A stretch of 64,000 bases of DNA, from the NCBI RefSeq assembly GCF_024171865.1, contig NZ_JAMTCN010000020.1, positions 1 to 64,000 of the forward strand, in the 5' to 3' direction. The translations under genes were made by a program, and so were the position numbers. Origin of the DNA: Prauserella aidingensis. Lineage in GTDB: Bacteria > Actinomycetota > Actinomycetes > Mycobacteriales > Pseudonocardiaceae. Below are positions 32,602 through 53,111 of the stretch, piece by piece (the first letter of the stretch is position 1; every line of letters begins with the position of its first letter). The notes under the pieces are model-generated. The model searched no databases, was not told the DNA's origin, and was given only the letters and a program-made list of their open reading frames with translations.

Positions 32602-32605
<4 letters not shown>
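31406..32605 (+). CDS. entC: Isochorismate synthase (siderophore-specific)
   Basis: The 399-residue chorismate-utilising enzyme converts chorismate to isochorismate, the first step to 2,3-dihydroxybenzoate. The C-terminal catalytic domain shows [10 protein letters not shown] near residue 148, the LFGASPELL segment, [21 protein letters not shown] and the Mg2+-site helix near 380 ([10 protein letters not shown]). The GTG start has GAGGGAG eight bases upstream. A better ribosome site (GAGGAGA) serves an in-frame GTG at 31382 that reaches a TGA after seven codons, so it cannot be the start. First gene of the iron-regulated operon; it overlaps the next gene by 4 bases. Confidence 0.94.
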
Positions 32606-34307
<1,702 letters not shown>

Positions 34308-34308
<1 letters not shown>

Positions 34309-35341: not shown

Positions 35342-36201
35342 CCCGCGTCGATCACCGTCACCGCCATCTCGACCGGATCGCCGAGGTGAGGGCGGGCCGT
35401 GGGGGTGCCGAGAAGGTGGGCTATCCGATCGGTATCCGCACGGTCGAGGTCGTCCGCACCGCGATGGTGGGGTCCGGTCTGATCCGTCTCACCCTCGGCG
35501 GTCCGGGGGTGGACGGCTTCGAGGCCCACGTGCCGGACGAGCACGTCAAGCTGGTCTTCCCCGACCCGGACGGCACGCTGCGGCTGCCGGAGCCGAACGG
35601 CACGATGTTGTCGTGGCCGCGGCCGTCGCCGACGACGCGCGAGTACACGGTCCGCCGGTTCGACGCGCAGGCGCGGGAACTCGACATCGACATCGCGGTG
35701 CACGACGGTGGCCTGGCGGCCGACTGGGCGCGAGGCGCCGTCGTCGGCGAGACCGTCCACGTCGCGGGTCCGCCCGGTGGGCTCGTCGTGCCCGACGGCT
35801 ACGACAAGTACCTGCTCGCCGGTGACATCACCGCGCTGCCCGCCATCGCCCGGTGGCTCGAGGAGATGCCGCCGACCGCGGAGGGGTGGGCCGTGATCGA
35901 GGTCGCCGACGCCGACGAGGAGATCCCGCTGGACGTGCCCGACGGGGTCGAGGTCCGCTGGCTCCACCGCGACGGGGCGCGTCCGGGGACGGCGGATCTG
36001 CTGGAGCCGGCGATCCGTTCGCTCCCGGTCCCCGGTCCGTCCGATGAGGACAGCCTTTTCGTGTGGCTCGCAGGCGAGGCGGGCACGCTCAAGCCGCTCC
36101 GCCGCTGGGTCCGCGACGAACTCGGGCTCGCGAAGAGCGACTACGACATCACCGGCTACTGGAAGCTCGGCGTCGCCGACTACGACGACGACCACCACTG
36201 A
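35338..36201 (+). CDS. Siderophore-interacting FAD protein (ViuB/SIP-type ferric-siderophore reductase)
   Basis: The 287-residue flavoprotein of the SIP family frees iron from the imported ferric siderophore in the cytoplasm. The FAD-binding motif TREYTVRRFD lies near residue 99, and a C-terminal NAD(P)H-side domain ends with KSDYDITGYWKLG, typical of the family. Start and stop overlap the neighbouring carrier gene by 4 bases. A 57-base gap separates it from the transport genes. Confidence 0.93.
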   Translation: MTRVDHRHRHLDRIAEVRAGRGGAEKVGYPIGIRTVEVVRTAMVGSGLIRLTLGGPGVDGFEAHVPDEHVKLVFPDPDGTLRLPEPNGTMLSWPRPSPTTREYTVRRFDAQARELDIDIAVHDGGLAADWARGAVVGETVHVAGPPGGLVVPDGYDKYLLAGDITALPAIARWLEEMPPTAEGWAVIEVADADEEIPLDVPDGVEVRWLHRDGARPGTADLLEPAIRSLPVPGPSDEDSLFVWLAGEAGTLKPLRRWVRDELGLAKSDYDITGYWKLGVADYDDDHH

Positions 36202-36258
36202 TTTCCCGCCCACAACTGAATCCCCAACCCCATCGAATTGTTCAAGGACGAAGAAACG

Positions 36259-37260
36259 ATGTCTCTGCTCAGATCTCGCCTCACCCGGGGCGCGGCCGCC
36301 GCGGCGGCCCTCGCGTTGACCGTCGGCCTCTCCGCGTGCGGAGCCGCGGGCGAGGAACAGACCGAGGGGCCGACGCGGCAGTTCAAGGCCGACAACGGCA
36401 CCGTCGAGATTCCCCAGGACCCGAAGCGGGTGGTCGCCACGGGCTACGCCGTGCCGTCGCTCATCGAGGCGGACGCCCCGCTCGTCGGTATCTCCTCGTG
36501 GGAACGCGGCGAACCGATGATGTCCGACGAGGACCTCAAGACGTACAAGGACCTGCCGAAGGTCGCCGGTGAGACCGCGGCCGAGACGAACTACGACGCC
36601 ATCGCCGAGCAGAACCCCGACCTGATCGTCATCGGCGTCCCGAAGCCGATCTTCGCCGAGATCGACGCCGAGCGACTCGAGTCGATCGCGCCCGTCGTGG
36701 CGATCGGTCCGAACGTGCCGTCGGCGTGGCGCGAGGTGTCCCACAAGCAGGCCGACGCGGCCGGGGCGCTGGAGCGCTTCGACGAGGTCAAGGGCGAGTA
36801 CGAGGCGAAGGCCGAGAAGTTGAAGGACAAGTACGCCGACGCCCTGTCGGGGCTGAAGCTGGCCCACGTCGGCGGCTACGGCGAGGTCGAGAACGGCAAC
36901 TTCCAGCGCGAGTTCGACGGCTCGTGGGGCACGAACATCGCGGGCGACATCGGCGCGACGTACTACGGCGAGGTCAAGGAGAAGGGCAAGGGGTCCCGCG
37001 CGGTCAGCGAGTACCCGTCGCTCGAGGAGCTGCCCTCGGCCATGCGCGAGGCCGACGCGATCACCTACACCGTGAACGCCGACGGGTCCGTTCCCCAGTC
37101 CGTCAAGTACGTCCTGGACTCGAACCTGTGGAAGAACCTGCCCGCGGTGAAGAAGGACATGACGTTCCCGATCAAGTACACCGAGGCGGCGACGTACGGC
37201 CAGGCGCAGCAGACGCTCGACGCGCTGGACGAGTCGTTCGCCCCGCTGCTGAAGAAGTGA
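36259..37260 (+). CDS. Iron-siderophore ABC transporter substrate-binding lipoprotein
   Basis: The 333-residue type III binding protein (FecB/FepB-like) has a lipoprotein signal with lipobox LSAC, lipid site near Cys27. Two lobes follow, linked by a long helix. The NYDAIAEQNPDLIVIG stretch near 118 is typical of siderophore binders. It would capture the ferric catecholate outside the membrane. The ATG at 36259 has AAGGA upstream; a TTG 21 bases earlier is unnecessary and would put charged residues before the signal. It is followed by two permeases and an ATPase. Confidence 0.94.
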   Translation: MSLLRSRLTRGAAAAAALALTVGLSACGAAGEEQTEGPTRQFKADNGTVEIPQDPKRVVATGYAVPSLIEADAPLVGISSWERGEPMMSDEDLKTYKDLPKVAGETAAETNYDAIAEQNPDLIVIGVPKPIFAEIDAERLESIAPVVAIGPNVPSAWREVSHKQADAAGALERFDEVKGEYEAKAEKLKDKYADALSGLKLAHVGGYGEVENGNFQREFDGSWGTNIAGDIGATYYGEVKEKGKGSRAVSEYPSLEELPSAMREADAITYTVNADGSVPQSVKYVLDSNLWKNLPAVKKDMTFPIKYTEAATYGQAQQTLDALDESFAPLLKK

Positions 37261-37270
37261 CGCCGCGGAC

Positions 37271-38287
37271 GTGACGAGCGCACCACCCGCGAGCCCGCCC
37301 ACGGCGAGGACCGCCCGCCCGGCCATCCTCGTCGTGGGCCTGCTCGCCCTGTTCGCCGCCGGCGTCGCCAGCGTCGCCGTCGGTGCGCGCGCCGTGCCCC
37401 TCGGGGAGCTGTGGGGGGCGCTGGCGGACTTCGACCCGCTCAACGGCGACCATCTGGTCGTGCGGGACATCCGGCTCCCGCGCACGCTGCTGGGGATCGC
37501 CGTGGGCGCGGCACTGGCGGTCGGCGGCGCGCTGATCCAGACGTTGTCGCGGAACCCGCTCGCCGAACCGGGCATCCTCGGCGTCACCCACGGCGCGGGG
37601 TTCGCGCTCACCGTGGGTGCCGCGCTGGGCCTGGCGGGCTCGGCGGTGTCGCAGCTCGGTCTCGGTGTCGCCGGTTCCGTGCTCGCGACCGCACTGGTGT
37701 ACGCCGTCGGCAGGCATTCCACGCTGCGGCTGCTGCTCGCGGGCGTGGCGTTCTCCGCCGTACTGATGGGCGTCTCGCTCGGCATCCGGCTCACGTCGCC
37801 GGACACATTGGACAAGTACCGGTTCTGGGCGGTCGGCTCGCTGGCAGGCCGGGAGCAGACGGACCTGACGGTGCCGCTCGTGGCCATCGGTGCGGCGCTC
37901 GTCGGCGCGCTGGTGATCGCACGGTCGCTCAACGCGATAGCGCTGGGCGAGACGGTCGCGCACACGCTGGGCGCCAACGTCGCGCGGGTGCGCACGGCGA
38001 CGCTGGTGCTGATCACCGTGCTGGCGGGCGCGGCGACCGCCGTCGCGGGGCCGATCCTGTTCGTCGGCCTGATCGTGCCGCACCTGCTGCGGCGGCTGAC
38101 GTCCGGTTCGGTGCCGTGGCTCGTCGGCCTGTCGGCGGTCGTGGGACCGATCCTGATGCTCGTGGCGGACACGATCGCGCGCGTGCTGCTGCACACGGGC
38201 GAGGTGCCGGTCGCGATCGTCACCGCGTTCCTCGGCGGTCCGGTGCTGATCTGGGTCGTCCGGCGCTACGGGGCGGGATCACTGTGA
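37271..38287 (+). CDS. FecCD-family siderophore permease, first subunit
   Basis: The 338-residue membrane subunit has about nine to ten hydrophobic helices. The FecCD coupling region VGGALIQTLSRNPLAEPGILG is near residue 88, and the cytoplasmic-loop stretch ETVAHTLGANVARVR and the LFVGLIVPHLLR segment follow. GTG start 10 bases after the binding-protein stop; its stop overlaps the next permease (GTGA). Pairs with the following gene to form the channel. Confidence 0.95.
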   Translation: MTSAPPASPPTARTARPAILVVGLLALFAAGVASVAVGARAVPLGELWGALADFDPLNGDHLVVRDIRLPRTLLGIAVGAALAVGGALIQTLSRNPLAEPGILGVTHGAGFALTVGAALGLAGSAVSQLGLGVAGSVLATALVYAVGRHSTLRLLLAGVAFSAVLMGVSLGIRLTSPDTLDKYRFWAVGSLAGREQTDLTVPLVAIGAALVGALVIARSLNAIALGETVAHTLGANVARVRTATLVLITVLAGAATAVAGPILFVGLIVPHLLRRLTSGSVPWLVGLSAVVGPILMLVADTIARVLLHTGEVPVAIVTAFLGGPVLIWVVRRYGAGSL

Positions 38288-39345
38288 CCGGCACGCAGAA
38301 GACGGGGGAGACTCCCGTGCTCGAACGGACCTCGACGGTGCGCGTGCCCGTCGGCGGCCGCGCATGGTTCGTCCAGCGGCGCACGATCGGCCTCGTCGTC
38401 GGCTGTGTCGTGGCGATGCTCGGACTCGGCTTCGTCGGCCTGTCGTACGGCACGAGCTGGGCCACGCCCGGAGAGGTGTTCGGTGCGCTGACGGGGCTGG
38501 AACCGTCCGTGGTCATCGCCGAATGGCGAGCGCCCCGCGTGGTGGCGGGAATCCTGTTCGGCGCCGCGCTCGGGGTGGCGGGCGCGATCTTCCAGAATCT
38601 GACACGCAACCCGATGGGCAGCCCGGACATCATCGGTCTCGACGCGGGCGCCTACACCGGCGCGCTGCTGGTCATGACGGTGTTCGCGGGCGCCTCGGTC
38701 ACCGTCGCGTTCGGCGCGGTCGCAGGTGGGCTGGTGACCGCGGCGCTGGTGTACTCGCTGTCGCGGTCGAACGGCCTGTCCGGCATGCGGCTCGTCGTCA
38801 TCGGCATCGCCGTCAACGCGATGGTCACGGCGTTGAACAACTGGCTCGTGCTGCGCGCGGAGCTCGAGGTCGCGATGGCCGCGGTGGGCTGGAACTCGGG
38901 CTCGCTCAACGGCATCGACTGGGAGGACCTGGTCGTGCCGGGGGTCGTCATCGCGGTGCTGCTGACCGTCATCGGCCTCCGCGCCTCGGCGTTGCAGCAG
39001 TCGGCGCTGGGTGACTCGATCGCCGTGTCGACCGGGGTGCCGCTGGAACGGCAGCGGCTGCTGATGGTGCTGGTCGGCGTCGGTTGCACGGCGACCGTGA
39101 CGGCGGTGGCGGGCCCGGTGATGTTCGTGGCACTGGCCGCACCGCAGATCGGCCGCAGACTCGCGCAGGCGCCCGGCGTTCCGTTGCTGCCCGCCGCCCT
39201 GACCGGGGCGGTACTGCTGCAGTTCGCCGACCTCGTCGCGCAGATGCTGCTCGCCCCCGTGTCCCTTCCCGTCGGCGTCGTCACGACGGCGATCGGCGGC
39301 GGTTACCTGATCTGGCTGCTCGCCCAGGAGGTGCGGCGGAGATGA
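38284..39345 (+). CDS. FecCD-family siderophore permease, second subunit
   Basis: A 353-residue permease with an N-terminal extension of about 35 polar residues before the first helix. FecCD signatures: GVAGAIFQNLTRNPMGSPDIIG near 98 and the AGPVMFVALAAPQIGRRLA segment near 277. GTG start within the stop codon of the first permease, so translation is coupled. It would form the heterodimeric channel with the first permease; the ATPase gene overlaps its end. Confidence 0.95.
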   Translation: MTGTQKTGETPVLERTSTVRVPVGGRAWFVQRRTIGLVVGCVVAMLGLGFVGLSYGTSWATPGEVFGALTGLEPSVVIAEWRAPRVVAGILFGAALGVAGAIFQNLTRNPMGSPDIIGLDAGAYTGALLVMTVFAGASVTVAFGAVAGGLVTAALVYSLSRSNGLSGMRLVVIGIAVNAMVTALNNWLVLRAELEVAMAAVGWNSGSLNGIDWEDLVVPGVVIAVLLTVIGLRASALQQSALGDSIAVSTGVPLERQRLLMVLVGVGCTATVTAVAGPVMFVALAAPQIGRRLAQAPGVPLLPAALTGAVLLQFADLVAQMLLAPVSLPVGVVTTAIGGGYLIWLLAQEVRRR

Positions 39346-40115
39346 CCACCCGACTGTCCGCCCAGGACGTGACCCTCGGCTACGGCGATCGGGTCGTGTC
39401 GACCCGGCTCAGCCTCGATGTTCCGGACGGTGCGTTCACCGCCGTCGTCGGTCCGAACGGCTGCGGCAAGTCGACGTTGCTGCGGGCGCTGGTCCGGTTG
39501 CTGAAGCCCGCCGAGGGCGCGATCACGCTCGACTCGCGGTCCGTATCGGACCTTCCGGCGAAGGGCCTCGCCCGCGAACTGGCGTTCCTGCCGCAGGATC
39601 CGCTGGCGCCGGAGGGCATCACGGTGCACCAGCTCGTCTCCCGCGGCCGGTATCCGCACCAGTCGCTGCTGGCGCTGTGGACGCCCGAGGACGAACGGGC
39701 CGTCGCCGAGGCCATGGTCACCGCCGAGGTGGAGGACCTCGCCGACCGGCCGGTGGCCGAGCTCTCCGGCGGCCAGCGGCAGCGCGTGTGGGTGGCGATG
39801 GTGCTCGCGCAGGACACGCCGTACCTGCTGCTCGACGAGCCGACGTCCTTTCTGGACATCACGCACCAGTACCGGCTGCTGGCGCTGCTGTCCCGGCTGC
39901 GGGACGAGGGCCGCACCGTGATCGCGGTGCTGCACGACATCAACCAGGCGTGCCGGTTCGCCGACCACCTCGTCGCGATGAAGGACGGCCGCGTGGCCGC
40001 CGAGGGTGCGGCGGCCGACGTCGTCGACGCGGCACTGATCAAGGACGTGTTCGACCTGCCGAGCGTGATCGTCGCCGACCCGGTGAGCGGCACGCCGATG
40101 GTCGTCCCCGAGTAG
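39342..40115 (+). CDS. Siderophore ABC transporter ATPase (FepC/FecE type)
   Basis: The 257-residue ABC ATPase powers import. Walker A GPNGCGKST near 38, Q-loop LPQDPLAPE near 85, signature LSGGQRQRVW near 139, Walker B YLLLDEPTS near 159, and switch histidine in VLHDINQA near 193. The start overlaps the second permease (ATGA). It ends 51 bases before the NRPS gene, in which no terminator is visible, so the operon probably continues. Confidence 0.96.
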   Translation: MTTRLSAQDVTLGYGDRVVSTRLSLDVPDGAFTAVVGPNGCGKSTLLRALVRLLKPAEGAITLDSRSVSDLPAKGLARELAFLPQDPLAPEGITVHQLVSRGRYPHQSLLALWTPEDERAVAEAMVTAEVEDLADRPVAELSGGQRQRVWVAMVLAQDTPYLLLDEPTSFLDITHQYRLLALLSRLRDEGRTVIAVLHDINQACRFADHLVAMKDGRVAAEGAAADVVDAALIKDVFDLPSVIVADPVSGTPMVVPE

Positions 40116-40166: not shown

Positions 40167-43100
40167 GTGTTGTCATCGTCGGAATCCGCCGCACCGGCCA
40201 CCGAGCTGTTCGAGCTGACCAGTGCGCAGCAGGGCATCTGGAACGCGCAGCGGCTCGAACCCGATTCGCCGTACTACGTCGTCGGCGACGTCGTGGAGCT
40301 GAGCGGTGACGCGCCGGTGGACGTCCCGCTGCTGGCCGAGGCGATGGTCGGCACGGTCACCGAGGCGGAGTCGCTGCGGTTGCGGACGACCGACACCGCC
40401 GACGGGCCGCGGCAGTGGGTCAGTGACGAACCGGTACCCGCGCCGCGGGTCGTCGACGTCAGCCGTGAGGCCGAGCCGCGCGCCGCCGCCGAGCAGCTCG
40501 TCGCAGAGGAACGGTTCGCGCTGGCCGAGTCGACGCGCGGCATGACCGGCACGCCGTTGTACACGCAGACGATCATCACGCTGTCGGCCACCGAGGTCTG
40601 GTACAGCCAGCTCGGCCACCACCTCGTGTTCGACGGCTACAGCGCGGCGATGCTGGCCCGGCGCACGGCCGCCCGGTACACGGCGCTCGTGCGGGGCGAG
40701 GACCCTCCGACGTGCCCGTTCAGTCCGTTCGCCGACTTCGTCGCCGCCGACCGGGACTACCTGGCGAGCGACAAACCCGAGGCCGACCGTGCCTACTGGG
40801 TCGACAGGATGACACCGCTGCCGGACCTTCCCGAGTGGACGGCGCCCGGCTCGGGGCTCGCGGACACGGTGTCGGCGAAGGCCGCGCTGCCCGCCGAGGA
40901 CGTGGCGCAGCTGCGCGCGTGCGCGGACCGGGAGGGCGTCACGTGGGGCGACGCCCTCCTGGCCTGCTACGCCGTGTTCCTGCACCGGGTGCTCGGCCGC
41001 AGCGACGTGCTGTTCGCGTTGCCGTTGATGTGTCGCACGAGCGGCGCCGAACTGCGGACGCCGGGCATGGCGGTCAACGTGCTGCCGCTGCGCGTCGAGG
41101 TGCGCGGCGGCGACACCCTCGGCGTCGTCGCCCGCCGGGTCGCCGAGGCGATGGGGCAGCTGCGTGCCCACCAGCGCTACCGCGGCGAGAACCTACCGCG
41201 TGACCTGGCGGCCCCGGGCGCGGGCGCGATCCTGCACGGGGCGGGTGTGAACCTGAAGGCGTTCGACCTGACGCTGGACTTCGCCGGGTCGACGGGTGTC
41301 ATGCGCAACGTCGCGGGCGGGCCTCCCGAGGACATGGGCCTGAGCGTGCTGCCCGCGTCCGGCGGCGGCCTGTTGCTCGGGTTCGAAGTGGACGCCCGCG
41401 CCCATTCGCAGTCCGATGTGGATGCTCGGCTCGAGACGGTCTGCACGATCGTCCGGCAGCTGTCGGCCGATGCGAAGCCGGCCGCGGGGCAGGTGTCGCT
41501 GCTGCCGACGGGGATTCGTGACGATCTGCTGGAGGCGTGGGCGCCCGCGGCCGTCCCGGGCGAACCCGCCGCGGTTCCCGACGTGCTGTCCGCGCTCGCG
41601 GCGTCCCGCGGTGGCGACCCCGCGCTGGTCCACGGTGACGAGCGGGTCACCTACGCCGAGCTGGCCGCGCGCGTGCACCGGCTCGCGCGGGCGCTGCGGG
41701 CGCGCGGCGTGGGACCCGACGACGTGGTCGCGGTCGCCCTGCCACGGTCGGCGGATCTCGTCGTGACGCTGCTGGCGGCGCTGGACGCCGGGGCCGCGTT
41801 CCTGCCCCTCGACCTCGAACACCCCGACGAGCGGCTGCGCCTGCTCCTGGCCGACGCGCGGCCCGCGCTGGTGGTGACCGATCCGGCGCTCGGCCGCGAC
41901 GTCGGCACCTGGCCGACGCTGACGGTCACCGACGCCGCCCGGCACGACGACCGTCCACTGTCGACCGGCGAACTGGCCCGCGAGCGCAGGCCCGAGGACC
42001 TGGCGTACGTCATCTACACCTCCGGGTCGACGGGAACGCCGAAGGGCGTGCTCGTGCCGTCGGCGGGCCTGCGCGCGCTGCTGCACCACCAGCGCGCGAC
42101 GGTGATCGCCGAGACGCAGCGCCGCACGGGCAGGCGGCTGCGGGTCGCGCACACGTACTCGTTCGCGTTCGACTCCGCCCTCGACCAGCTGTTGTGGCTG
42201 CTGTGCGGGCACGAGCTGCACCTGTACGACACCGACGTCACCAAGGACGCGGACGCGCTACTGGCCGCCTACGCCCGTGACGCGATCGACGTCGTCGACA
42301 CCACGCCGTCGCTGGCCGCGCCGCTCGTCGACGCCGGACTGCTCACCGGCTCGCACCGGCCGTCGCTGATCGTGCTCGGCGGCGAGGCGACCCCGCCCTC
42401 GCTGTGGCGCCGCATCTCCGAATCTGCTGTGGACGGCCGGAACATCTACGGCCCGACCGAGGCGACCGTCGACGCCGCCCACGCCGACATCACGGGCGAG
42501 GAGCCGGCGATCGGACGGCCGCTCGCCGGGATGCGGGCGTACCTGCTGGACAACGCGCTGCAGCCGGTCGCGCCGGGTTCGGTGGGGGAGTTGTACCTTG
42601 CGGGGCCGCAGCTCGCGCGCGGGTATCTCGGCCGCTTCGCCGGCACCGCCGAGCGGTTCGTCGCCGATCCCCACGGCGCGCCCGGCGACCGGATGTACCG
42701 CACCGGGGACCTCGCCCGGTGGTCCCCGGATCGCGGGTTCGACTACCTGGGACGCGCCGACGGCCAGGTGAAGATCCGCGGCCACCGCGTCGAGGCCGGT
42801 GAGGTCGAGGCGGAGCTCGGTGCGCTGCCGGGTGTGAGCGGCGCGGCCGCGATGGTCCGTCACGATACGGCCACGCCGCGCCTCGCCGGTTACGTCGTGC
42901 CCGAACGCGGTGCCGCTCCGACGCCGGACGGGCTGCGGGACGCCCTCGCCGAGCGGCTGCCCGACCATCTGGTGCCGTCGGCGGTCGTCGTGCTCGACGA
43001 GTTGCCGCTGACCGTGAGCGGCAAGGTCGACCGTGCGGCGCTGCCGGTGCCGCGGGCCACGACGTCGGGCAGGTCGCCGTCGACCGAGTCCGAGCGCCTG

Positions 43101-46100
43101 CTGTGCGCCGTCGTCGCCGAGGTGTTCGACCTGGCGCCCGACGAGGTGAGCCCGGACGACGACTTCTTCGGCCTGGGTGGCGACAGCATCAGCGCGATCA
43201 GCGTCAGCAGCCGCCTCCGCGCCCACGGTGTCGAGCTGCGGCCGCGTGACCTCTTGGCACGCCGCGACCTGGCCTCGCTGGCCACCCGGATGTCCACCGT
43301 GGCCGCGGACGCGCCGCCTGCGGCCGCCGACGAACCGGTCGGCCCGCTGCCCGCGCCGCCGATCGTCCGGGGTCTGCTCGACCCGCATCCCGACCCCGAT
43401 GCGTTCGCGGGTTATGCACAGTGGACGGTCGTCACGACGAACACGCCGCTGGAGCGCGCGAGCCTGGTCGCCGGGCTCGGCGTCGTACTCGACACGCATG
43501 CCGCGCTGCGCCTGCGGCTCACCGGCCGACGGGACCTCGAGGTGCGGGCGGCCGCGGACGTCTCCGCCGAAGCCGTCTTTGCCGAGGACATGGTGTCGGC
43601 CAAACCCTTCGGCGTCGAACCGGCCGACGTCGCGGAACGACTGGCAGGCGAACTGGACCCGGTTGCCGGCAACATGCTGCGACTGGCGCTCGTCGGCGAC
43701 GACCGCCTCGTGATCGTCGCCCACCACCTCGTCATGGACGGCGTGTCCTGGCGGGTGCTGTTGCCCGATCTGCGCGCCGCCTGCCGTGGTGACGCGCTCG
43801 CACCCGTCGGCACGTCGTGGCGCGCGCACGCGCTGGCACTGGCCGAACAGGGCACGTCCGGGGAGCGGCGCGGCGAGCTCGACCACTGGCGGGCCGCCAC
43901 CGCCCCGGAACTGCGGCCGCTCGGCGTGCCGACGCTCGACCCCGAGCGGGACACCGCCGCGACGGCACGCCGCGACCTCACGGTCGTGAACCGGCGGTCG
44001 TCGGCGGCCGCCCTGACGACGCTGCCCGCGGCCTACCGCACCGGCACCGACGAGGTGCTGCTCGCGGCCCTGGCCCTCGCCCTGCGGTCCGTACGCGCCC
44101 GGACGTCGACGACCCCGGCCACGAATGCCCGCCCGGCCGCCTTCGGGATCACGGTGGAAAGCCACGGCCGGGACGCGGTCACTCCCGGCGCCGACCTGTC
44201 GCGCACGATCGGCTGGTTCACCGCCGAGTTTCCCGTGCGCGTCCCCGCCGACGCGCTGCGCACCGACGCGGAACTGCGCGACGCCCTCGCGGGCGGCGAG
44301 GCGGCCGGACGGCTGTTGCGCGAGGCCAAGGAGGCCCGTCGCGCCGTGCCCGACGGCGGCATCGGCTACGGCATCCTCCGCCACCTCGACGACGGCGCCG
44401 AGCTCGACGTGCCACCGCCCGAGGTGCTGCTCAACTACCTCGGCCGGTTCGCGGCGTCCGACGGCGGCGACTGGCGGCTGCCCGAACGGGAGGCGTTCGG
44501 CGTCCTCGAACCCGAGGGCAAGGCGCTCGAACAGGTCCTCGCACTGAACTGCTTCGTCCACGAGCACGCCGCGGGCGACGAGGCGACCGGTGACGGAGAC
44601 GACGCGGACGGAGCCGGTGACGGCGACGGCGGCCCGCGACTCGCCGTCGAGTGGACGGCAGCGGGCAGGCTCGTCGGCGCCGACCTGCTCGCCGAGCTGC
44701 AGCGCGGCTGGACCGAGGCGCTCGACGCCCTCGCCGCGCACGCCGAGCGGATCGGGCCAGGAGGAGGCGGTCTCACCCCGTCCGACCTGCCGTTGGTGTC
44801 GGTGACGCAGGCCGACATCGACGCGCTCGAACGCGTCCGTCCGGTGTCGGACGTCCTGCCCGCGACGTCGTTGCAGGCAGGACTGTCGTTCCACACCATG
44901 GCGGCAGGGGATGCCGACGCCGACGTGTACGTGGTGCAGGCGATCCTCACGCTCACCGGAGAGCTGGACCAGCGACGGCTCGCCGACGCGGCCCGGGAGC
45001 TGCTGCGCAGGCAGCCCGCGCTGCGTGTGCACCTTGCCACGACCGCGGCCGGCGAGGTGGTGCAGGTCGTTCCCGCCGAGCCCGACCTCGACTGGCAGCT
45101 CATCGACATGTCGACAACGGACTCCGGAACGGTCGCGTCCGGCGACGAGGATCTCGAGGCCCGGTTCGCCGCGCGATGCCGTGAGGAGCTGGAGCGGCCC
45201 TTCGACCCGGAGGTGCCACCGCTGATCCGGTTCCGGTTGTTCCGGTTCGGCCCCGCCGAACACCGCCTCGTGCTCACCAACCACCACGCGCTGCTCGACG
45301 GCTGGTCGATGCCCCTGACCGGGCGGACCCTGCTCGGGCTGTATCGCGAACTCGGCGGCGGACCGGCGGTGCCGCCGTCGGCGTCGCCGCAGGATTACCA
45401 CCACTGGCTGGCGGGCCGCGACCGCGACGCGGCGCTCGACGCCTGGCGCGACGCGCTGTCCGGTGTGGACGAAGCGACCCGCCTCGCGCCCGCCACGGCG
45501 CGGCGGGAGGTCGCCCGTCCGGGTGCGGTCACGCTGGAGCTGGGCGAGGAGTTCAGTGAGCGGCTGAGTGCGTTCGCCCGAGCTCGCGGCATCACGGTCA
45601 CCACGGTGTTGCAGACGGCGTGGGGCCTGCTGCTCGGGCGGCTGACCCGCAGGCGTGACGTCGTGTTCGGCTGCCCGGTCTCCGGCAGGCCCGCCGAGGT
45701 GGACGGTGTCGAGTCGATGATCGGACAGCTGGGCAACACCATTCCGGTGCGCGTGCGCTGCTGCGCGGACCAGTCCGCGGCCGACCTGCTCGAGGCGGTG
45801 CACGAGGAGTCCGTCGCGCTCGCCGACCATCACCACCTCGGACTGCCGGACATCCAGCGGGCGATCGGCGTCGGCGAGCTGTTCGACACGATGCTGGTGA
45901 TGGAGAACTTCCCGTTCAACGGTGCAGGACTCGCCGTTGACGAGAAGGTCGCACTCGCGGACGTGGACATCACCGACGCCACGCACTACCCGCTGACCGT
46001 CATCGCGTTGCCCGGCGACGCGCTGAGCCTCGTGCTGAGTTACCAGCCCCACGCGTTCACCGACGACACCGTGCGCGGGTACGCCCGGTGGCTGCACGCG

Positions 46101-49100
46101 CTGCTCACCGAACTGGTCACCGACGCCGACCGGCCCGTCGGCAGGCTGCCGATGCTGGACGCCGCCGACACCGCCGCGGTGCTGCACCGCGGCACCTCAC
46201 GGGTGCCCGCGAAGCCCCGCGACGGCGTGCTGGAGACGTTCGCCTCCTGGGTGGCGCGCACCCCCGACGCCGAGGCGCTCGTGTGCCGGAGCCGCAGCCT
46301 GACGTACGCCGAGCTGGACCGGCTCGCCAATCGGCTCGCGCACCGCCTGCTCGACGCGGGCGCCGGACCGGAGCAGCCCGTCGGGATGCTGCTGGGCCGC
46401 GACGTCGAGATGATCGTGGCACTGCTGGGCATCCTCAAGGCGGGCGCGGTGTACCTGCCGCTCGACCCGGACTACCCGAACGACCGGCTCGCCTACATGA
46501 TCGGCGACGCGCGGCCCGTCGCGTTCGTCACCGACGCCGGGGCGCTGGCGACACTCGGCGGCGAGGTCCCCGGCGACGGCACCGTGGTGCGGGTGGACGA
46601 TCCCGCCGTGCTGGGCGATCCGGCCGAGCCGACCGACCGCGACGCCGACCCCGCCCACGCCCGGGCGCAGCTGACGCCGGATTCGCTGGCGTACGTCATC
46701 TACACCTCCGGCACGACGGGACAGCCCAAGGGTGTGGCCGTGACGCACCGCGGCATCCCGGACCTGATCGCGCTGCAGGAGGAGGTCGTCGGTGTCACCG
46801 AACGCGACCGCTACCTGCACTTCGCGTCGACCAGCTTCGACGTCGCGTTCTGGCAGACGATGGTGCCGCTGGCCTCCGGCGGAACCCTCGTCGTCGCGCC
46901 GGACGAGGTACGCGTACCCGGCGACGAGCTGCTCGACTACATCGCCGAGCACCGGCTGACCGGCGTCAACCTGCTGCCGTCGTTCCTCTCGGCCGTGCCC
47001 GAGGACCGCACGGTGCCGGGCGACGTGTTCTTCGTGGTCGGCGCCGAACGCCTCGACCCGGAGCTCGCCGACCGGTGGGGCACGGGCAGGCGCGCGCTGT
47101 TCAACGCCTACGGACCGACCGAGGTCACGATCAACTCCGTGACCTGGCACTACGAACCGGGCGAGACCGGCGCCGTCCCCATCGGACGGCCCGATCCGAA
47201 CGTGCGCGCCTACGTGCTCGACGACGGCCTGCAACCCGTCGGCACCGGCGCTCCCGGCGAGCTGTACCTGGCCGGCCCGAAGCTCGCCCGCGGGTACCTC
47301 GGCAGGCCGGGACAGACGTCGCAGGCGTTCGTGGCCGACCCGTACGGCGAACCGGGATCGCGGATGTACCGCACCGGCGACGTCGTGTACTGGCGACCCG
47401 ACGGGCAGCTGGTGTTCCTCGGCCGCGCCGACCGGCAGGTCAAGGTGCGCGGATTCCGCATCGAACTCGCGGAGATCGAGACCGCGCTGACGCGGCATCC
47501 CGACGTGCGCGGGTGCGCGGTCGTCGTGCGGAACGGCAGGCAGCTCGTGGGCTACGTGATCCCGGCGGGGGGCGCCGAGTTCGATCCGGTGCGACTGCGC
47601 GAGGACCTGCTCGGGCAGCTGCCCGACTACATGGTCCCCGCGGCGTTCGTGCGGCTCGACCGGCTGCCCCTGACCCCGGGCGGGAAGCTCGACGAACACG
47701 CGCTGCCCGCACCCGAGCACACCGGCGACGGCGCGGGACGGGAGCCGTCGACCCACGCCGAGGCGGTGCTGCTCGGCATCGTCCGTGACGTGCTGGACTC
47801 GGGCGACATCCGCCTCGACGACCACTTCCTCGAGGTCGGCGGCGACAGCATCGTCTCGTTGCAGGTCGTGTCCCGCGCGCGCAGGCAGGGACTGCGGCTC
47901 GGCCCACGCGACGTGCTCGACGGCGGCACGGTCGCGGGCATCGCCGCGCGCTGCCACGCCGCCGAGGAGAGCGCCGACACCGGACCGTCCACAGGGGACG
48001 CGCCGTTGACCCCGGTGATGCGCGATCTGCTCGACCGGGCGCCCGATCCCGGCGACTTCTGCCAGTGGACCGAGATCTGCGTGCCCGCGGGTGGCGACCT
48101 CGCCACGTGGTCCCGGGCCGTGGACGCGCTCCTGCGGACCCACGACGTGCTGCGGGCCCACCTCGTGGACGGCGCCGTGGCGGCGCGTACCCCGGTGCTG
48201 CGGATCGCCGAACCCGACGCCGTCACCGCGGCCGACGTGCTCACTCGCGTCACCGCGACCGGGGACGTGCGCGGCCTCGTCGACGGCTGGATCGCCGACG
48301 TGCGGGAGCAGTTCGACGTCCGCCGCGCGCCGTTGGTGCGGGCACTGTGGGTCGACAGGGGAGCAGACGAGCTCGGCCGATTCGTACTCGTGGCGCACCA
48401 CCTGCTGGTCGACGGCGTGTCCTGGCGCGTGCTCGTCGACGACCTCGCCGACGCCTACGAGGGCAGGGAGCTGTCGCGGCCCACGCCGTTCCTCGGCTGG
48501 GCGCGGTCGCTCGCGTCGGCCGCCGATGCGCGGGCGGGCGAGCAGGCGCACTGGCGCGCCGTCGGGCGAAACCCGCAGAAACGGCTCACGCGCGCACGGT
48601 TCGACCCGGGCCGTGACACGGGCGCGACGGCGGTGCACCACGAGTTCGCCGTCGATGCCGCCACCAGCAGGACACTCCTGACGACCCTGCCCGCGGCCTA
48701 CCACGCGACGCCCGACGCGGTGTTGCTCACGGCGCTGACCAGGGCGATCGCTCGATGGTCCGACCGCGAATCGGACCTGTACCTCGCGTTGGAGGGGCAC
48801 GGCAGGCACGCGCCCGACCCGGACCGCGACGTCGACCTGTCGCGCACCGTCGGCTGGTTCACCGCGGTCCACCCGGCGCGGATCACGCTGCCCGACGGCG
48901 ACGCCGCGACGCAGCTGAAGGCCGTCAAGGAACGGCTGCGCGCCCAGGGAGACGGCCTCGGCCACGGCATCCTCGCCGCTGCGGGCCGGGTGACGCCGGT
49001 GCACCCCGACGTCAGCTGGAACTACCTGGGCCAGTTCGCGCAGGCCCCCGACGTCGAACGCGCGTGGCAGGCGCCGCCGGGCTCGGCACCGTTCGGATCC

Positions 49101-50774
49101 GGCGGCGATGCGCTCCCGATGCCGCACAGCCTCATGATCAACGCGATGACGACCGGTGACGGCGACGGGCAGGCCCTGCACGTGCGGATCACCTGGCCGC
49201 GCGCGGTGCTGACCGACGACGACGTCGCCGGGCTGGCCGAGGCGTTCCGCGGCGAACTGGTCGAGCTGGCCTCCGACGAGGACGCGCTCCGCGGAGCGGG
49301 CCGTACCCCGTCGGACTTCGACCTCGTCTCGCTCACCCAGTCCGATGTGGACGAGCTGGAGCGGCGCTACCCGGTCGCCGACGTGGTGCCGCTCAGCCCG
49401 TTGCAGGAGCTGATGCTGCGGCACTCCCGGCGTGCGGGCACGCGTGATCCTTACACCGTGCAGGCGGCGTTCTCGCTGACCGGCCGGGTCGACGTCGACG
49501 CGCTGCACGCCGCGGTCTGCGACCTCGTGGCCCGGCACCCGAACCTCGGCGCCGCGTTCCCGCCGGGACTCGACGTGGCGGTCCTGCTCGCCGATACCCG
49601 TTCCACCGCGGCACCGGACCGCCGGTATGTCGACGTGTCGGGAGAGGCGGACGTCGACGGCGCGGTCGAACGGGTGCTGTCGGCCGATCTGGCGGAACCG
49701 TTCGACCTGGCCGCGGGCTGTCCGGTGCGGCTCACCGTGGTCCGCCGGGCGGCCGAGGCGGTGGACCTGGTGCTCACCACGCATCACGTGCTGTCGGACG
49801 GCTGGTCGGCGCCCCGCATGCTCGGCGAGCTCTTCGCCGCCTACACCGCGCGCACCGGCGGCGATGCGGAGTTGCCCGCCCCGGTTCCGTTCACCCGGTA
49901 CCTGCGCTGGCTCTCCCGCCGGGACCGCGGTGCCGACGTGGCCGCATGGTCGGGCGAGCTCGCCTCGGTCGACCGCTACGACCGGGCCCTGCCCGACATC
50001 CCGGCGGCCACCGGGAACGGAACGGCCACCGACCGCGTTCCGGATGCCGGTGACGGCCGGGACGCGGGCGGGCCGCCGGAGCCGGTGACGTTCGACCTCG
50101 AACCGCAGCTGGTGCGCACGCTCACCGCGACGGCGTCCGCCTGCGGGGTCACCCCGGCGACCCTGGTGCAGGGCGGCTGGGCGGCGGTGCTGACGGCACG
50201 GAGCGGGCGCAAGGACGTCCACTTCGGAGCGATGGTGTCCGGCAGGCCGCCCGAAGTGGACGGTGTCGAGGAGATCATCGGATTGCTGGCGAACACCGTT
50301 CCGGTGCGCGCCACACTGACCGGACGGCTCGGCGATGCGCTGCGGGACCTGCAGGAACGGCACCAGGCACTGGCCCCGCACCACGCGGTGTCGCTGCCCG
50401 ATCTCGAGCGGTCGGTGGGCGTGAAGCGGCTCTTCGACAGCCTCCTGGTGTTCGAGAACTACCCCGTCGACCCCGACCGGCTGGCCGAACCCGCACCCGG
50501 TCTGCGGCTCGCCGGCATGCGGTTCCGCGAGTTCACCCACCATCCGGTGACGGTCACCGTGATGTCGGAGGGCGCGGGCTGGCGCGGCATCGTCGCCTGC
50601 AGGCCGGGCGCCGTGGCCGAGCAGGCGGACCGCATCGCCGCGGCGTTCGAACGCGTCCTGCGGGCACTGCCGGACGTGCTCGGCGAGACGGGAGGTTCCG
50701 GGGAGGGGTGCGACGTCGACGGCGCGACGCTGGTGCGGCTCGCGGAGCGGACGCTGCGGGAGGGCACGGCGTGA
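40167..50774 (+). CDS. Nonribosomal peptide synthetase, C-A-T-E-C-A-T-E-C
   Basis: The 3535-residue siderophore synthetase. Domains by active-site motif: C1 (about 10-440, HHLVFDG near 151), A1 (about 470-950, YVIYTSGSTGTPKG near 613), T1 (GLGGDSISAI near 1002), E1 (about 1050-1540, HHLVMDGVSWR near 1186), C2 (HHALLDGWS near 1706), A2 (YVIYTSGTTGQPKG near 2176), T2 (EVGGDSIVSL near 2557), E2 (HHLLVDGVSWR near 2744), and terminal C3 (HHVLSDGWS near 3207, to the end). All HHxxxDG and carrier motifs look intact. There is no thioesterase, reductase or last carrier. By hand alignment to GrsA the A1 pocket is DSDDVGIVD, closest to arginine codes; A2 is DVWLFVAIN, only loosely serine-like. The chain would be DHB-D-aa1-D-aa2. 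The stop overlaps the exporter start. Confidence 0.95.
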   Translation: MLSSSESAAPATELFELTSAQQGIWNAQRLEPDSPYYVVGDVVELSGDAPVDVPLLAEAMVGTVTEAESLRLRTTDTADGPRQWVSDEPVPAPRVVDVSREAEPRAAAEQLVAEERFALAESTRGMTGTPLYTQTIITLSATEVWYSQLGHHLVFDGYSAAMLARRTAARYTALVRGEDPPTCPFSPFADFVAADRDYLASDKPEADRAYWVDRMTPLPDLPEWTAPGSGLADTVSAKAALPAEDVAQLRACADREGVTWGDALLACYAVFLHRVLGRSDVLFALPLMCRTSGAELRTPGMAVNVLPLRVEVRGGDTLGVVARRVAEAMGQLRAHQRYRGENLPRDLAAPGAGAILHGAGVNLKAFDLTLDFAGSTGVMRNVAGGPPEDMGLSVLPASGGGLLLGFEVDARAHSQSDVDARLETVCTIVRQLSADAKPAAGQVSLLPTGIRDDLLEAWAPAAVPGEPAAVPDVLSALAASRGGDPALVHGDERVTYAELAARVHRLARALRARGVGPDDVVAVALPRSADLVVTLLAALDAGAAFLPLDLEHPDERLRLLLADARPALVVTDPALGRDVGTWPTLTVTDAARHDDRPLSTGELARERRPEDLAYVIYTSGSTGTPKGVLVPSAGLRALLHHQRATVIAETQRRTGRRLRVAHTYSFAFDSALDQLLWLLCGHELHLYDTDVTKDADALLAAYARDAIDVVDTTPSLAAPLVDAGLLTGSHRPSLIVLGGEATPPSLWRRISESAVDGRNIYGPTEATVDAAHADITGEEPAIGRPLAGMRAYLLDNALQPVAPGSVGELYLAGPQLARGYLGRFAGTAERFVADPHGAPGDRMYRTGDLARWSPDRGFDYLGRADGQVKIRGHRVEAGEVEAELGALPGVSGAAAMVRHDTATPRLAGYVVPERGAAPTPDGLRDALAERLPDHLVPSAVVVLDELPLTVSGKVDRAALPVPRATTSGRSPSTESERLLCAVVAEVFDLAPDEVSPDDDFFGLGGDSISAISVSSRLRAHGVELRPRDLLARRDLASLATRMSTVAADAPPAAADEPVGPLPAPPIVRGLLDPHPDPDAFAGYAQWTVVTTNTPLERASLVAGLGVVLDTHAALRLRLTGRRDLEVRAAADVSAEAVFAEDMVSAKPFGVEPADVAERLAGELDPVAGNMLRLALVGDDRLVIVAHHLVMDGVSWRVLLPDLRAACRGDALAPVGTSWRAHALALAEQGTSGERRGELDHWRAATAPELRPLGVPTLDPERDTAATARRDLTVVNRRSSAAALTTLPAAYRTGTDEVLLAALALALRSVRARTSTTPATNARPAAFGITVESHGRDAVTPGADLSRTIGWFTAEFPVRVPADALRTDAELRDALAGGEAAGRLLREAKEARRAVPDGGIGYGILRHLDDGAELDVPPPEVLLNYLGRFAASDGGDWRLPEREAFGVLEPEGKALEQVLALNCFVHEHAAGDEATGDGDDADGAGDGDGGPRLAVEWTAAGRLVGADLLAELQRGWTEALDALAAHAERIGPGGGGLTPSDLPLVSVTQADIDALERVRPVSDVLPATSLQAGLSFHTMAAGDADADVYVVQAILTLTGELDQRRLADAARELLRRQPALRVHLATTAAGEVVQVVPAEPDLDWQLIDMSTTDSGTVASGDEDLEARFAARCREELERPFDPEVPPLIRFRLFRFGPAEHRLVLTNHHALLDGWSMPLTGRTLLGLYRELGGGPAVPPSASPQDYHHWLAGRDRDAALDAWRDALSGVDEATRLAPATARREVARPGAVTLELGEEFSERLSAFARARGITVTTVLQTAWGLLLGRLTRRRDVVFGCPVSGRPAEVDGVESMIGQLGNTIPVRVRCCADQSAADLLEAVHEESVALADHHHLGLPDIQRAIGVGELFDTMLVMENFPFNGAGLAVDEKVALADVDITDATHYPLTVIALPGDALSLVLSYQPHAFTDDTVRGYARWLHALLTELVTDADRPVGRLPMLDAADTAAVLHRGTSRVPAKPRDGVLETFASWVARTPDAEALVCRSRSLTYAELDRLANRLAHRLLDAGAGPEQPVGMLLGRDVEMIVALLGILKAGAVYLPLDPDYPNDRLAYMIGDARPVAFVTDAGALATLGGEVPGDGTVVRVDDPAVLGDPAEPTDRDADPAHARAQLTPDSLAYVIYTSGTTGQPKGVAVTHRGIPDLIALQEEVVGVTERDRYLHFASTSFDVAFWQTMVPLASGGTLVVAPDEVRVPGDELLDYIAEHRLTGVNLLPSFLSAVPEDRTVPGDVFFVVGAERLDPELADRWGTGRRALFNAYGPTEVTINSVTWHYEPGETGAVPIGRPDPNVRAYVLDDGLQPVGTGAPGELYLAGPKLARGYLGRPGQTSQAFVADPYGEPGSRMYRTGDVVYWRPDGQLVFLGRADRQVKVRGFRIELAEIETALTRHPDVRGCAVVVRNGRQLVGYVIPAGGAEFDPVRLREDLLGQLPDYMVPAAFVRLDRLPLTPGGKLDEHALPAPEHTGDGAGREPSTHAEAVLLGIVRDVLDSGDIRLDDHFLEVGGDSIVSLQVVSRARRQGLRLGPRDVLDGGTVAGIAARCHAAEESADTGPSTGDAPLTPVMRDLLDRAPDPGDFCQWTEICVPAGGDLATWSRAVDALLRTHDVLRAHLVDGAVAARTPVLRIAEPDAVTAADVLTRVTATGDVRGLVDGWIADVREQFDVRRAPLVRALWVDRGADELGRFVLVAHHLLVDGVSWRVLVDDLADAYEGRELSRPTPFLGWARSLASAADARAGEQAHWRAVGRNPQKRLTRARFDPGRDTGATAVHHEFAVDAATSRTLLTTLPAAYHATPDAVLLTALTRAIARWSDRESDLYLALEGHGRHAPDPDRDVDLSRTVGWFTAVHPARITLPDGDAATQLKAVKERLRAQGDGLGHGILAAAGRVTPVHPDVSWNYLGQFAQAPDVERAWQAPPGSAPFGSGGDALPMPHSLMINAMTTGDGDGQALHVRITWPRAVLTDDDVAGLAEAFRGELVELASDEDALRGAGRTPSDFDLVSLTQSDVDELERRYPVADVVPLSPLQELMLRHSRRAGTRDPYTVQAAFSLTGRVDVDALHAAVCDLVARHPNLGAAFPPGLDVAVLLADTRSTAAPDRRYVDVSGEADVDGAVERVLSADLAEPFDLAAGCPVRLTVVRRAAEAVDLVLTTHHVLSDGWSAPRMLGELFAAYTARTGGDAELPAPVPFTRYLRWLSRRDRGADVAAWSGELASVDRYDRALPDIPAATGNGTATDRVPDAGDGRDAGGPPEPVTFDLEPQLVRTLTATASACGVTPATLVQGGWAAVLTARSGRKDVHFGAMVSGRPPEVDGVEEIIGLLANTVPVRATLTGRLGDALRDLQERHQALAPHHAVSLPDLERSVGVKRLFDSLLVFENYPVDPDRLAEPAPGLRLAGMRFREFTHHPVTVTVMSEGAGWRGIVACRPGAVAEQADRIAAAFERVLRALPDVLGETGGSGEGCDVDGATLVRLAERTLREGTA

Positions 50775-52189
50775 CCGCGGGCACGCGCAGCGCCGGTCCG
50801 GCCGCGGACGGATCCGACCGCATCGGCGGACGGCTGCTGGCGATGTCGCTGGTGCTGGTACTCGGCACGTTCATGGCGTCGCTGGACTCGACGATCGTCA
50901 ACGTCGGCCTTCGCACGTTGAGTGTCGAGTTCGGCGCGAGCGTGACGGAGGTGCAGTGGGCGAGCACCGCCTACCTGCTCGCGGTGGTCGCGGCGGCGCC
51001 GACGTCGGGGTGGCTGGCCGAACGATTCGGCGCGCGCCGCGTGTGGCTGGCCGCGGTGGCCGTGTTCCTGGCCGGATCACTGGCGTGTGCGCTGGCGTGG
51101 TCGACGGCGTCGTTGGCGGCGTTCCGGGTGCTGCAGGGGTTCGGCGGCGGACTGCTGCCGCCGACCGGTCAGGCGCTGCTGGCGCGGGTGGCGGGCAAGA
51201 GCCGCACCGGCAGGATCATGAGCATCGTGGGCGTGGTGCCGATGCTGGCGCCCGTGTTCGGCCCGCTGGCGGGCGGCACGCTGCTGGAGATCGCCGACTG
51301 GTCGTGGCTGTTCCTGGTCAACATCCCGGTCGGGCTGGTCGCGATGCTGCTGGCGGTGTGGCTGGTGCCGCGCGTGCCGCCCGCCGAGCAGGTGTCCCGG
51401 TTCGACCTGCGCGGGGCGATGCTGCTGTCGCCGGGGCTGGCGGCCGTGCTGTTCGGCCTCACCGACCTCGGCTCCCAGGACCGCAACCCACCCGCGGCGG
51501 TGACCGCACTGCTGGTGGGGGCCGGCCTGCTCACGGCGTTCCTGGTGCACGCGCTGCGGTCCCACCGGACGCCCCTGATCGACCCCCGGCTGCTGAGCAC
51601 CCCGCCACTGGGCTCCGCCGTGCTGGCGCTGTTCGTCGCCGCGGCGTCGGTGTTCGGCACGATGTTCCTGCTGCCGATGTACCTGCAGTCGGGCCGCGGC
51701 CTGTCGGCGTGGGACGCGGGACTGATGCTCGCGCCCCAGGGCGTCGGCGCGGTGCTGGGATCGTTGCTCGTGGTGAAGCCGCTCATCGACCGGGTGGCGC
51801 CGCGGACGATCGTGGTCACCGGGTTCGCGTTGATCATCGCGGCGACCGTGCCGTTCACGCAGCTCGGCGGCCTCGCCGACGGCTGGCTGATCGCGGCGCT
51901 GTTCGTGCGCGGCCTCGGCACCAGCATGATCGCCTCACCCGTGATGACCATCGTCTACACCGGAGTGGACCAGGAGTTGCTCCCGCGGGCCTCCAGCGCG
52001 CTCAGCCTCGTCAACTACGTCGGCGGGGCGATCGGCACCGCGGGCCTCGCCGTGCTGCTGGAGGTGCGCCTCGCGGCGACCGGTGACATTGCGGCGTCGT
52101 TCGGCGAGGCGTTCTGGTGCGTGCTCGGGCTGTGCGTGCTCGCCCTCGCCGGTGCGCTGCGACTGCCGCGCACCGCCCCGTCGCGGTAG
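50771..52189 (+). CDS. MFS exporter of the siderophore cluster (DHA2 type)
   Basis: The 472-residue membrane protein has about 12-14 hydrophobic segments, motif A GWLAERFGARRVW near 76-88, and the DHA2-like WSWLFLVNIPVG near 176. It most likely secretes the finished siderophore, by position: its GTG start overlaps the NRPS stop. The alternative of a general drug pump cannot be excluded by sequence. Last gene of the plus-strand operon; its stop is followed by a 21-bp repeat array and the convergent entA. Confidence 0.88.
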   Translation: MTAGTRSAGPAADGSDRIGGRLLAMSLVLVLGTFMASLDSTIVNVGLRTLSVEFGASVTEVQWASTAYLLAVVAAAPTSGWLAERFGARRVWLAAVAVFLAGSLACALAWSTASLAAFRVLQGFGGGLLPPTGQALLARVAGKSRTGRIMSIVGVVPMLAPVFGPLAGGTLLEIADWSWLFLVNIPVGLVAMLLAVWLVPRVPPAEQVSRFDLRGAMLLSPGLAAVLFGLTDLGSQDRNPPAAVTALLVGAGLLTAFLVHALRSHRTPLIDPRLLSTPPLGSAVLALFVAAASVFGTMFLLPMYLQSGRGLSAWDAGLMLAPQGVGAVLGSLLVVKPLIDRVAPRTIVVTGFALIIAATVPFTQLGGLADGWLIAALFVRGLGTSMIASPVMTIVYTGVDQELLPRASSALSLVNYVGGAIGTAGLAVLLEVRLAATGDIAASFGEAFWCVLGLCVLALAGALRLPRTAPSR

Positions 52190-52295: not shown

Positions 52296-53111
52296 TCAGC
52301 GGAGGGTCGCGCCGCCGTCGACGTAGAGCTCCTGCATGGTCACGTGCCGGGCACGGTCCGAGGCGAGATACAGGACGGCGTCGGCGACGTCCTCGGGATC
52401 GGCGATCCGCCGCAGCGGGATGCCGACCCGGTAGTTCTCCGGATCGCCCTTGAGCACGGGATCCGGTCCGCCGCCGTCGTGCTCCCACATCGCACGCTGC
52501 ATCGGCGTGTCCGTCGACCCGGGGCACACGACGTTGCAGCGGATGCCGTGGTCGGCCAGCTCCAGGCCCAGCGACTTGGTGAACATGGTGGTCGCCGCCT
52601 TCGACGCCGCGTAGGCCGCCATGCCACGGCGTGGCACCCCGCTCGCGTTCGACGACACCGTGACGATGCAGCCGCGCTCCCGCTCGATCATTCGCCCGCT
52701 GACGGCACGGGAGACGTGGAACACGCCGGTCGTGTTGACGTCGAACGTGAACCGCCAGTCCTCGTCCGAATAGGACGCGACGGGACCCTTCACGAGGACC
52801 CCCGCCACGTTGGCCAGCACATCGACGGGCCCGACGGTCGCCTCTGCCCGTGCGACGACCTCGTCGACCTGCGCGGAGTCGGTCACGTCGCACGGCATGC
52901 CGGTGATGCCGGGCTCGGCGTCGTACGTCTCGACGACGCCGGGGGAGCGGTCGGTCGCCACGACGGTGGCGCCCGCGTCCCGCAGCGCCCTGGCCACGGC
53001 CGCACCGATGCCCTGGGCGGCGCCCGTCACGAACGCGACCCTGCCTCCGAACTCCCTGCCCGCGAACTCCCCGCCCGCGGCCCCGCTGCTTACGAATTCC
53101 TGCTGACCCAC
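52296..53111 (-). CDS. entA: 2,3-Dihydro-2,3-dihydroxybenzoate dehydrogenase
   Basis: The 271-residue short-chain dehydrogenase oxidises 2,3-dihydro-2,3-DHB to 2,3-DHB with NAD+. The cofactor motif TGAAQGIG is at 29-36, NVAGV near 101, and the catalytic set Ser-Tyr167-Lys171 in YAASK. The [21 protein letters not shown] region is the EntA/DhbA hallmark. GTG start with GAGGAGCG upstream. It is the only biosynthetic gene on the minus strand, convergent to the main operon, and no iron box is visible in the 220 bases upstream, so its control is unclear. An odd 24-residue Gly/Glu-rich leader precedes the fold. Confidence 0.94.

Follow-up and report, generated by a model that had tools for sequence, protein, structure and literature searches.

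The nonribosomal peptide synthetase (NRPS) encoded at positions 40167..50774 of the window, by which we mean the whole 64,000-nucleotide stretch of DNA analyzed here, very probably belongs to an assembly line of the mirubactin type, in a Prauserella species or a close relative of that genus, and would make mirubactin or a very close analogue. This ties an apparent oddity, a siderophore synthetase that ends in a condensation domain, to a known hexadentate siderophore. The initial annotation had presented the siderophore type as new; its family is known, and mirubactin-like clusters detected by antiSMASH have already been reported in the sister genus Saccharomonospora in a passage of PMC7990883 and, for Streptomyces alfalfae, in a passage of PMC8493286. 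The covered passages of the literature on InverSIL, metallophore mining, and chlorodactyloferrin hold no description of this cluster. In family and probable product the NRPS is already explained; what its terminal condensation domain, C3, may do is taken up below.

The plus-strand open reading frame at 40167..50774 encodes 3535 amino acids, and its gene is one that we take to be MrbJ-like in name. Pfam searches found five domains of the condensation superfamily in the protein, along with two AMP-binding and two carrier domains, and no thioesterase (TE) domain, and phmmer searches with the window's own domains gave the order C1-A1-T1-E1-C2-A2-T2-E2-C3, which bears out the C-A-T-E-C-A-T-E-C synthetase originally described. 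The starter condensation domain C1 (40206..41531, aa 14-455; HHLVFDGYS), the expected acceptor of 2,3-dihydroxybenzoate (DHB), groups with first-position C domains and is followed by A1 (41574..43049, aa 470-961), T1 (aa 969-1045), and E1 (aa 1075-1520). Pfam and phmmer, and for C2 also the tree, then place C2 (44829..46181, aa 1555-2005) after E1, followed by A2 (46224..47711, aa 2020-2515), T2 (aa 2526-2600), and E2 (47967..49301, aa 2601-3045; HHLLVDGVS). The protein closes with C3 (49341..50666, aa 3059-3500), which follows an epimerization domain and has an intact catalytic motif (HHVLSDGWS at residue 3206), as had been noted from the sequence. The T-TE end of EntF-type synthetases is lacking in this NRPS, and none of the 13 matches to the PF00975 thioesterase family in the genome lies on the window's contig, in agreement with the claimed absence of a TE. 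A T-TE hidden by a frameshift past 50774 was also looked for and is ruled out, since the gene for an MFS exporter begins with a GTG codon at 50771 that the TGA stop of the NRPS overlaps.

The genes around the NRPS are those of a catecholate siderophore cluster. On the plus strand, in order, they encode an isochorismate synthase (EntC/DhbC; 31406..32605; PF00425, and NF005380 at 437 bits, below the equivalog cut-off of 486), a DHB-AMP ligase of the EntE type (32677..34308, start codon uncertain; TIGR02275 at 668 bits, below the cut-off of 723.55), an isochorismatase corresponding to the N-terminal part of EntB without a fused carrier (34380..35009, start uncertain; PF00857), a stand-alone aryl carrier protein (ArCP; 35087..35341; PF00550 at 36 bits, with DAGLDSIR in its translation), a siderophore-interacting protein of the ferric-siderophore reductase type (35338..36201; PF04954 and PF08021), a siderophore-binding lipoprotein (36238..37260; PF01497), two FecCD-type permeases (37271..38287, siderophore ABC permease models; 38284..39345, PF01032), a siderophore ABC ATPase (39342..40115; FecE/FepC-type models), the NRPS, and the MFS exporter (50771..52189; PF07690 at 196 bits). 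The entA gene lies downstream of the exporter gene on the opposite strand (52296..53111; TIGR04316 at 334 bits, above the cut-off of 300). The cluster therefore holds the whole DHB gene set (entC, entE, entB, ArCP, and entA), and its EntE-type ligase is the only DHB-AMP ligase match in the genome at E<=1e-100. A DtxR/IdeR-type iron box at 31250..31268 (plus strand), 5′ of the operon, is the sole site in the window within three mismatches of what we take to be the consensus (0 expected in 100 shuffles), and a site with one to three mismatches was found 5′ of entC in 10/10 orthologous regions, the window included. At positions 1-329, the window holds the last part of a 23S rRNA gene together with a 5S rRNA gene.

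We searched 60 genomes with C3 as the query, and 35 of them, including the window's own, matched at E<=1e-30. The same NRPS is present in nine genomes besides its own: six from the same genus group, namely P. rugosa (G002), P. isguenensis (G003), P. halophila (G004), P. salsuginis (G005), P. alba (G006), and Saccharomonospora sp. CUA-673 (G001), together with Amycolatopsis regifaucium (G021), Tamaricihabitans halophyticus (G024), and a genome that we took for Actinosynnema mirum (G027). Weaker C3 matches in G007, G012, and G035 (44-47%) were left out of the carrier count; the NRPSs there may be more distant relatives. Another NRPS frame, L165 (G007:C23:74001-94000), reads A-T-E-C-A-T-E-C, and its terminal C domain is the outgroup closest to mirubactin-type C3 domains. 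The G001 NRPS is broken into two frames; broken frames in this genome (L064/L065, L176) extend to entC, a biotin carboxylase gene, and the monooxygenase gene discussed below, which suggests sequencing errors over gene decay.

A collection-wide scan yielded 160 confirmed relatives; the best 80, from 13 named actinobacterial genera and one metagenome-assembled genome, were examined. In 80/80 of these the reading frame stops 48-168 bp (median 99) past the same terminal C domain, which leaves no room for a carrier. The exporter gene comes next in 79/80, the exception (L124) being a contig edge, and the eight upstream domains form one clean series in 67/80; the remaining 13 show cuts at contig ends or split, extra, or odd matches, and the first domains of L120 are just 34-39% alike. 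The terminal-C arrangement is thus a trait of the whole family and not an oddity of one genome. In one relative a DAHP synthase gene follows the exporter gene (L103:12651-13667), and by translation the same holds for L105 and L121, which fits the need for chorismate.

The window was filed as a mirubactin-type cluster because of the orthologue in the genome taken for A. mirum and because of that genome's sole DHB-AMP ligase. The orthologue, which was compared directly with the window's NRPS rather than through the MrbJ record by name, is 53-68% identical to it by domain. The one DHB-AMP ligase at E<=1e-100 in G027 lies at 3.137 Mb, inside the orthologous cluster, and scores below the family cut-off, as do those of all seven genomes searched. 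A. mirum is given as the source of mirubactin in a passage of PMC9609785, and the relevant part of PMC9120177 lists its mirubactin domains as C-A-PCP-E, C-A-PCP-E, E, A, KR; we read the third E of that listing as the terminal C domain. Mirubactin is given as C26H32N6O11, m/z 605.2207, in a passage of PMC12630106, and with masses of 605.2 and, for the Fe form, 658.1 in the part of PMC9609785 concerned with it. Two DHB, Arg, and N5-formyl-N5-hydroxyornithine (fhOrn) less three H2O compute to C26H32N6O11 and 605.2202, and to 658.13 for the Fe form. From these masses, together with the guanidine loss and the hydroxamate that a passage of PMC9609785 mentions, we infer that the amino acid residues of mirubactin are Arg and fhOrn. 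The same part of that paper describes the loss of guanidine and one DHB to give mirubactin C, in which both ornithine parts are D, and an acylguanidine in mirubactin, the latter also in the title of the structure revision that it cites. The formula is that of a free acid end. Of the DHB-D-aa1-D-aa2-amine product that had been proposed, the DHB-D-aa1-D-aa2 backbone is supported, and the terminal amine is not.

The adenylation domains were assessed by their specificity codes, two positions of which were set by hand with known Thr and hydroxyornithine codes as a guide; the residue meanings of such codes belong to general background. The A1 code, DSDDVGIVDK, is near-identical in the nine sequences that keep A1, the window's included, and is identical to that of G027 save for two of the nine positions read, a comparison within the family only. 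A1 is a candidate for Arg activation. A2, with the code DVWNVGAINK, was compared with 52 A domains, the nearest of which share 49-52% identity with it and are of the DVWxxGAVNK type from hydroxamate-type NRPSs, apart from one of unclear kind (L165). For two of the three nearest DVWxxGAVNK domains, the same NRPS also holds a Ser-type and a DMENLGLINK (hydroxyornithine) domain, and the third is accompanied by a Ser-type domain in the part that its stretch covers. A2 is accordingly a candidate for fhOrn activation. In G024 the A2 code differs and the formyltransferase is absent.

No monooxygenase, formyltransferase, or MbtH homologue was found in the window by tblastn with the copies from elsewhere in the genome. 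The reported lack of an MbtH and a hydroxylase is thus true of the cluster and untrue of the genome, and we consider that fhOrn and MbtH are probably supplied from an unlinked locus with iron-box-like sites, so that in Prauserella the siderophore line is probably fed from outside its own cluster. A strong PF13434 monooxygenase (251-373 bits) is encoded elsewhere in 10/10 genomes with the NRPS (four strong copies in G027, two in G021; split in G001), and monooxygenase, formyltransferase, and MbtH genes occur together in 7/7 genomes of the Prauserella group, with the monooxygenase frame of G001 broken. At 7/7 loci, two iron-box-like sites (two to four mismatches) occur within the gap that separates the two genes or at its edge. 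Each of the seven fhOrn-locus stretches has a further such site, which in the window's genome precedes a FecCD permease pair and an ATPase gene. At this locus (G000:C6; L170:12251-15410) two FecCD-like permeases and an ATPase, read from translations, stand with the iron-box-like site beside the fhOrn genes, an arrangement that resembles a hydroxamate siderophore locus without its own NRPS.

Across the 60 genomes the formyltransferase is present in 9/10 with the NRPS versus 14/50 not counted as carriers (p = 0.0004), and within the family the association has p = 0.024. Counted by genus within the family it is lost (3/4 versus 12/26, p = 0.60), and the co-occurrence is therefore not independent evidence. 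Among the best 80 relatives, viewed for ∼8.5 kb past the exporter gene in most and for less in some, a monooxygenase gene lies downstream of the NRPS in 10, eight of which also have the formyltransferase and MbtH genes there (six of these eight trios were read gene by gene), and a formyltransferase gene alone in five more. The monooxygenase of the window's genome is as similar (64%) to the copies in L115 and L117, two of these 10 relatives, where permease and ATPase genes are nearby; the fhOrn-type genes of both may belong to coelichelin clusters, which we take them to resemble. Downstream of the NRPS in L113, L122, and L125, an ArgB-like amino acid kinase and a GNAT protein are encoded beside the fhOrn genes (the L122 copies were scanned by profile), which fits a need for ornithine and arginine.

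In P. rugosa, P. isguenensis, and P. salsuginis, 5/5 condensation-domain matches at E<=0.001 fall in the mirubactin-type NRPS. The MbtH of these three genomes has no other condensation-bearing line to serve, and no second NRPS continues the assembly line there. Transfer of the chain from C3 to another NRPS of the genome, one of the outcomes envisaged in the initial annotation, is for this reason extremely improbable. Other NRPS loci do occur in the window's genome, on contigs C10 and C2, as does an A-T-hexapeptide protein on C19; the C10 line, however, is complete and ends in a TE. Carrier matches in P. rugosa (seven) and P. salsuginis (six) are confined to the NRPS, its ArCP, short frames (96-229 aa), and a single longer frame (1312-1316 aa) that is presumably a carboxylic acid reductase; the 12 in P. 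isguenensis additionally include further short frames as well as frames of 1363 and 2497 aa. The C19 protein was rejected as an acceptor because P. rugosa and P. salsuginis have no such carrier frame save the putative reductase of 1312-1316 aa. We note two further features of the window's genome. The NRPS on C2 (G000:C2:129191-135160; L023:3191-9160), a C-A-MT-T-C protein of 1989 aa encoded beside PKS genes, also has a C-terminal C domain, and the A and carrier matches at G000:C20:82333-83964 have the same scores and frame length as those on another contig (C30:35795-37426), which suggests a duplicated or doubly assembled stretch.

C3 itself is under purifying selection. Against five congeners its dN/dS was 0.22-0.28, compared with 0.15-0.24 for C2 and 0.39-2.56 for the tail that follows it. 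In the tree, whose bootstrap is rough, C3 forms one clade of 10, apart from the starter C1 clade, within a group that has support 95/96. This group takes in all 11 C domains preceded by an E domain, 10 C domains from the first position, C2, and six preceded by a T domain without E. For an alignment of C3 we took the 10 orthologues and a hand-picked, broadly spread set of 21 from the 80 loci, 31 sequences in all (L086 was left out because of a stop in the range), and compared them with 17 canonical C-after-E domains, of which 10 are C2 domains of this family. The HHxLSDG motif is invariant in 31/31, and residues fixed only in C3 include, in query numbering, S171, A176, R178, R413, R415, E416, H420 (30/31), T425, and W433. 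An AlphaFold2 model of C3 (pLDDT 82.9) retrieved ordinary C domains with Foldseek, the best being a C domain of surfactin synthetase (E 4.9e-32). The selection, the placement among C-after-E domains, and the invariant residues of its own indicate that C3 is a working, specialized domain rather than a relic, and by descent it would be expected to take a D-peptidyl donor. Its position and its place among C-after-E domains would also fit the vestige of a third module that has lost A-T-TE. We consider this very improbable, however, given that C3 is kept in every one of the 80 best relatives with its motif invariant in the aligned sequences, and given a dN/dS like that of the other domains and well apart from that of the tail.

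The placement of C3 among domains with a D-residue donor would also suit a reaction in which C3 passes the DHB-D-aa1-D-aa2 chain held by T2 to a free diamine, polyamine, or amino acid in the manner of VibH or the glidonins, for which the addition of putrescine by a terminal C domain is demonstrated in a passage of PMC10587159. Release by an external amine was the route first suggested for this cluster. It is disfavored by the published mirubactin formula, which is exactly that of the acid of two DHB, Arg, and fhOrn, with no amine. Furthermore, position 413 is R in 31/31 C3 sequences versus D in 12/17 canonical C-after-E domains, and no amine-making gene was found among the window genes common to the orthologous regions, in a search made with the window genes only. 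We therefore regard amine capture by C3 as very improbable.

We propose instead that the line probably works as follows. The window's own genes would make DHB, which would be loaded on the stand-alone ArCP; C1 would join it to the A1 amino acid, presumably Arg, and E1 would convert this residue to D; C2 would add the A2 amino acid, presumably fhOrn, which E2 would likewise convert to D, with fhOrn and MbtH coming from the unlinked locus. The predicted product is mirubactin itself or an analogue very close to it, bearing a second DHB at the Arg guanidine and a free C-terminal acid. For C3, our tentative preference, held at somewhat less than even confidence, is that it acylates the guanidine by transferring a second DHB from the aryl carrier to the side chain of Arg while the chain is bound to T2. 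Apart from release, the product calls for three acyl bonds (DHB-Arg, Arg-fhOrn, and DHB-guanidine), and the line has three C domains, which favors this role over hydrolytic release. Against acylation with DHB counts the place of C3 among C-after-E domains and not among the DHB starter domains. We know of no NRPS C domain for which guanidine acylation has been described. In the literature searched, of which that on mirubactin was covered in part, we found no account of the role of the terminal C domain or of acylguanidine formation by a C domain.

It could also be that C3 only ends the chain, with water or an unstable nucleophile releasing the acid and the second DHB being attached through C1 or by another enzyme. 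In favor of such a role, the cluster lacks a TE, the product is an acid, and the descent of C3 suits a D-peptidyl donor from T2. Yet it would forgo the one-to-one match of three acyl bonds with three C domains, and a C domain acting as a hydrolase would be out of the ordinary, so that we hold release alone to be doubtful, if a real contender. If C3 does acylate the guanidine, the domain order fits the product with one C domain for each acyl bond. On either reading, the question of acylguanidine formation and TE-less release in this family is narrowed to one domain.

Several known systems share parts of this arrangement. An NRPS of G018, which we take to be of the erythrochelin type, also ends in a C domain and has acyl-hydroxyornithine-like and hydroxyornithine-like A domains; in that type the residue order differs, and no DHB genes are known. 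The terminal C domain of VibH and glidonin systems likewise ends the line and works without a TE, as described in part of PMC10587159. By its formula, mirubactin is not a diamine amide, unlike the amine-capture products of those systems, and the glidonin module keeps an A*-T part after its C domain, unlike C3, according to a passage of the same paper. Chlorocatechelins A and B belong to the same catecholate family with an acylguanidine, as stated in part of PMC9609785; their catechols are chlorinated, whereas no halogenase was found among the scanned window genes. The closest counterpart is the mrb cluster of A. mirum, as represented by G027, along with its relatives in Streptomyces. The G027 cluster has no monooxygenase, formyltransferase, or MbtH gene within the 40 kb read, as in the window, and its genome carries the formyltransferase gene at 1.22 Mb and the NRPS gene at 3.12 Mb. 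The entA gene, which follows the exporter gene in Prauserella, lies upstream of entC in G027. Otherwise the two clusters share the same C-A-T-E-C-A-T-E-C NRPS with near-identical A-domain codes, and the same gene order of entC, entE, entB, siderophore-interacting protein, siderophore-binding protein, two FecCD permeases, ATPase, NRPS, and exporter.
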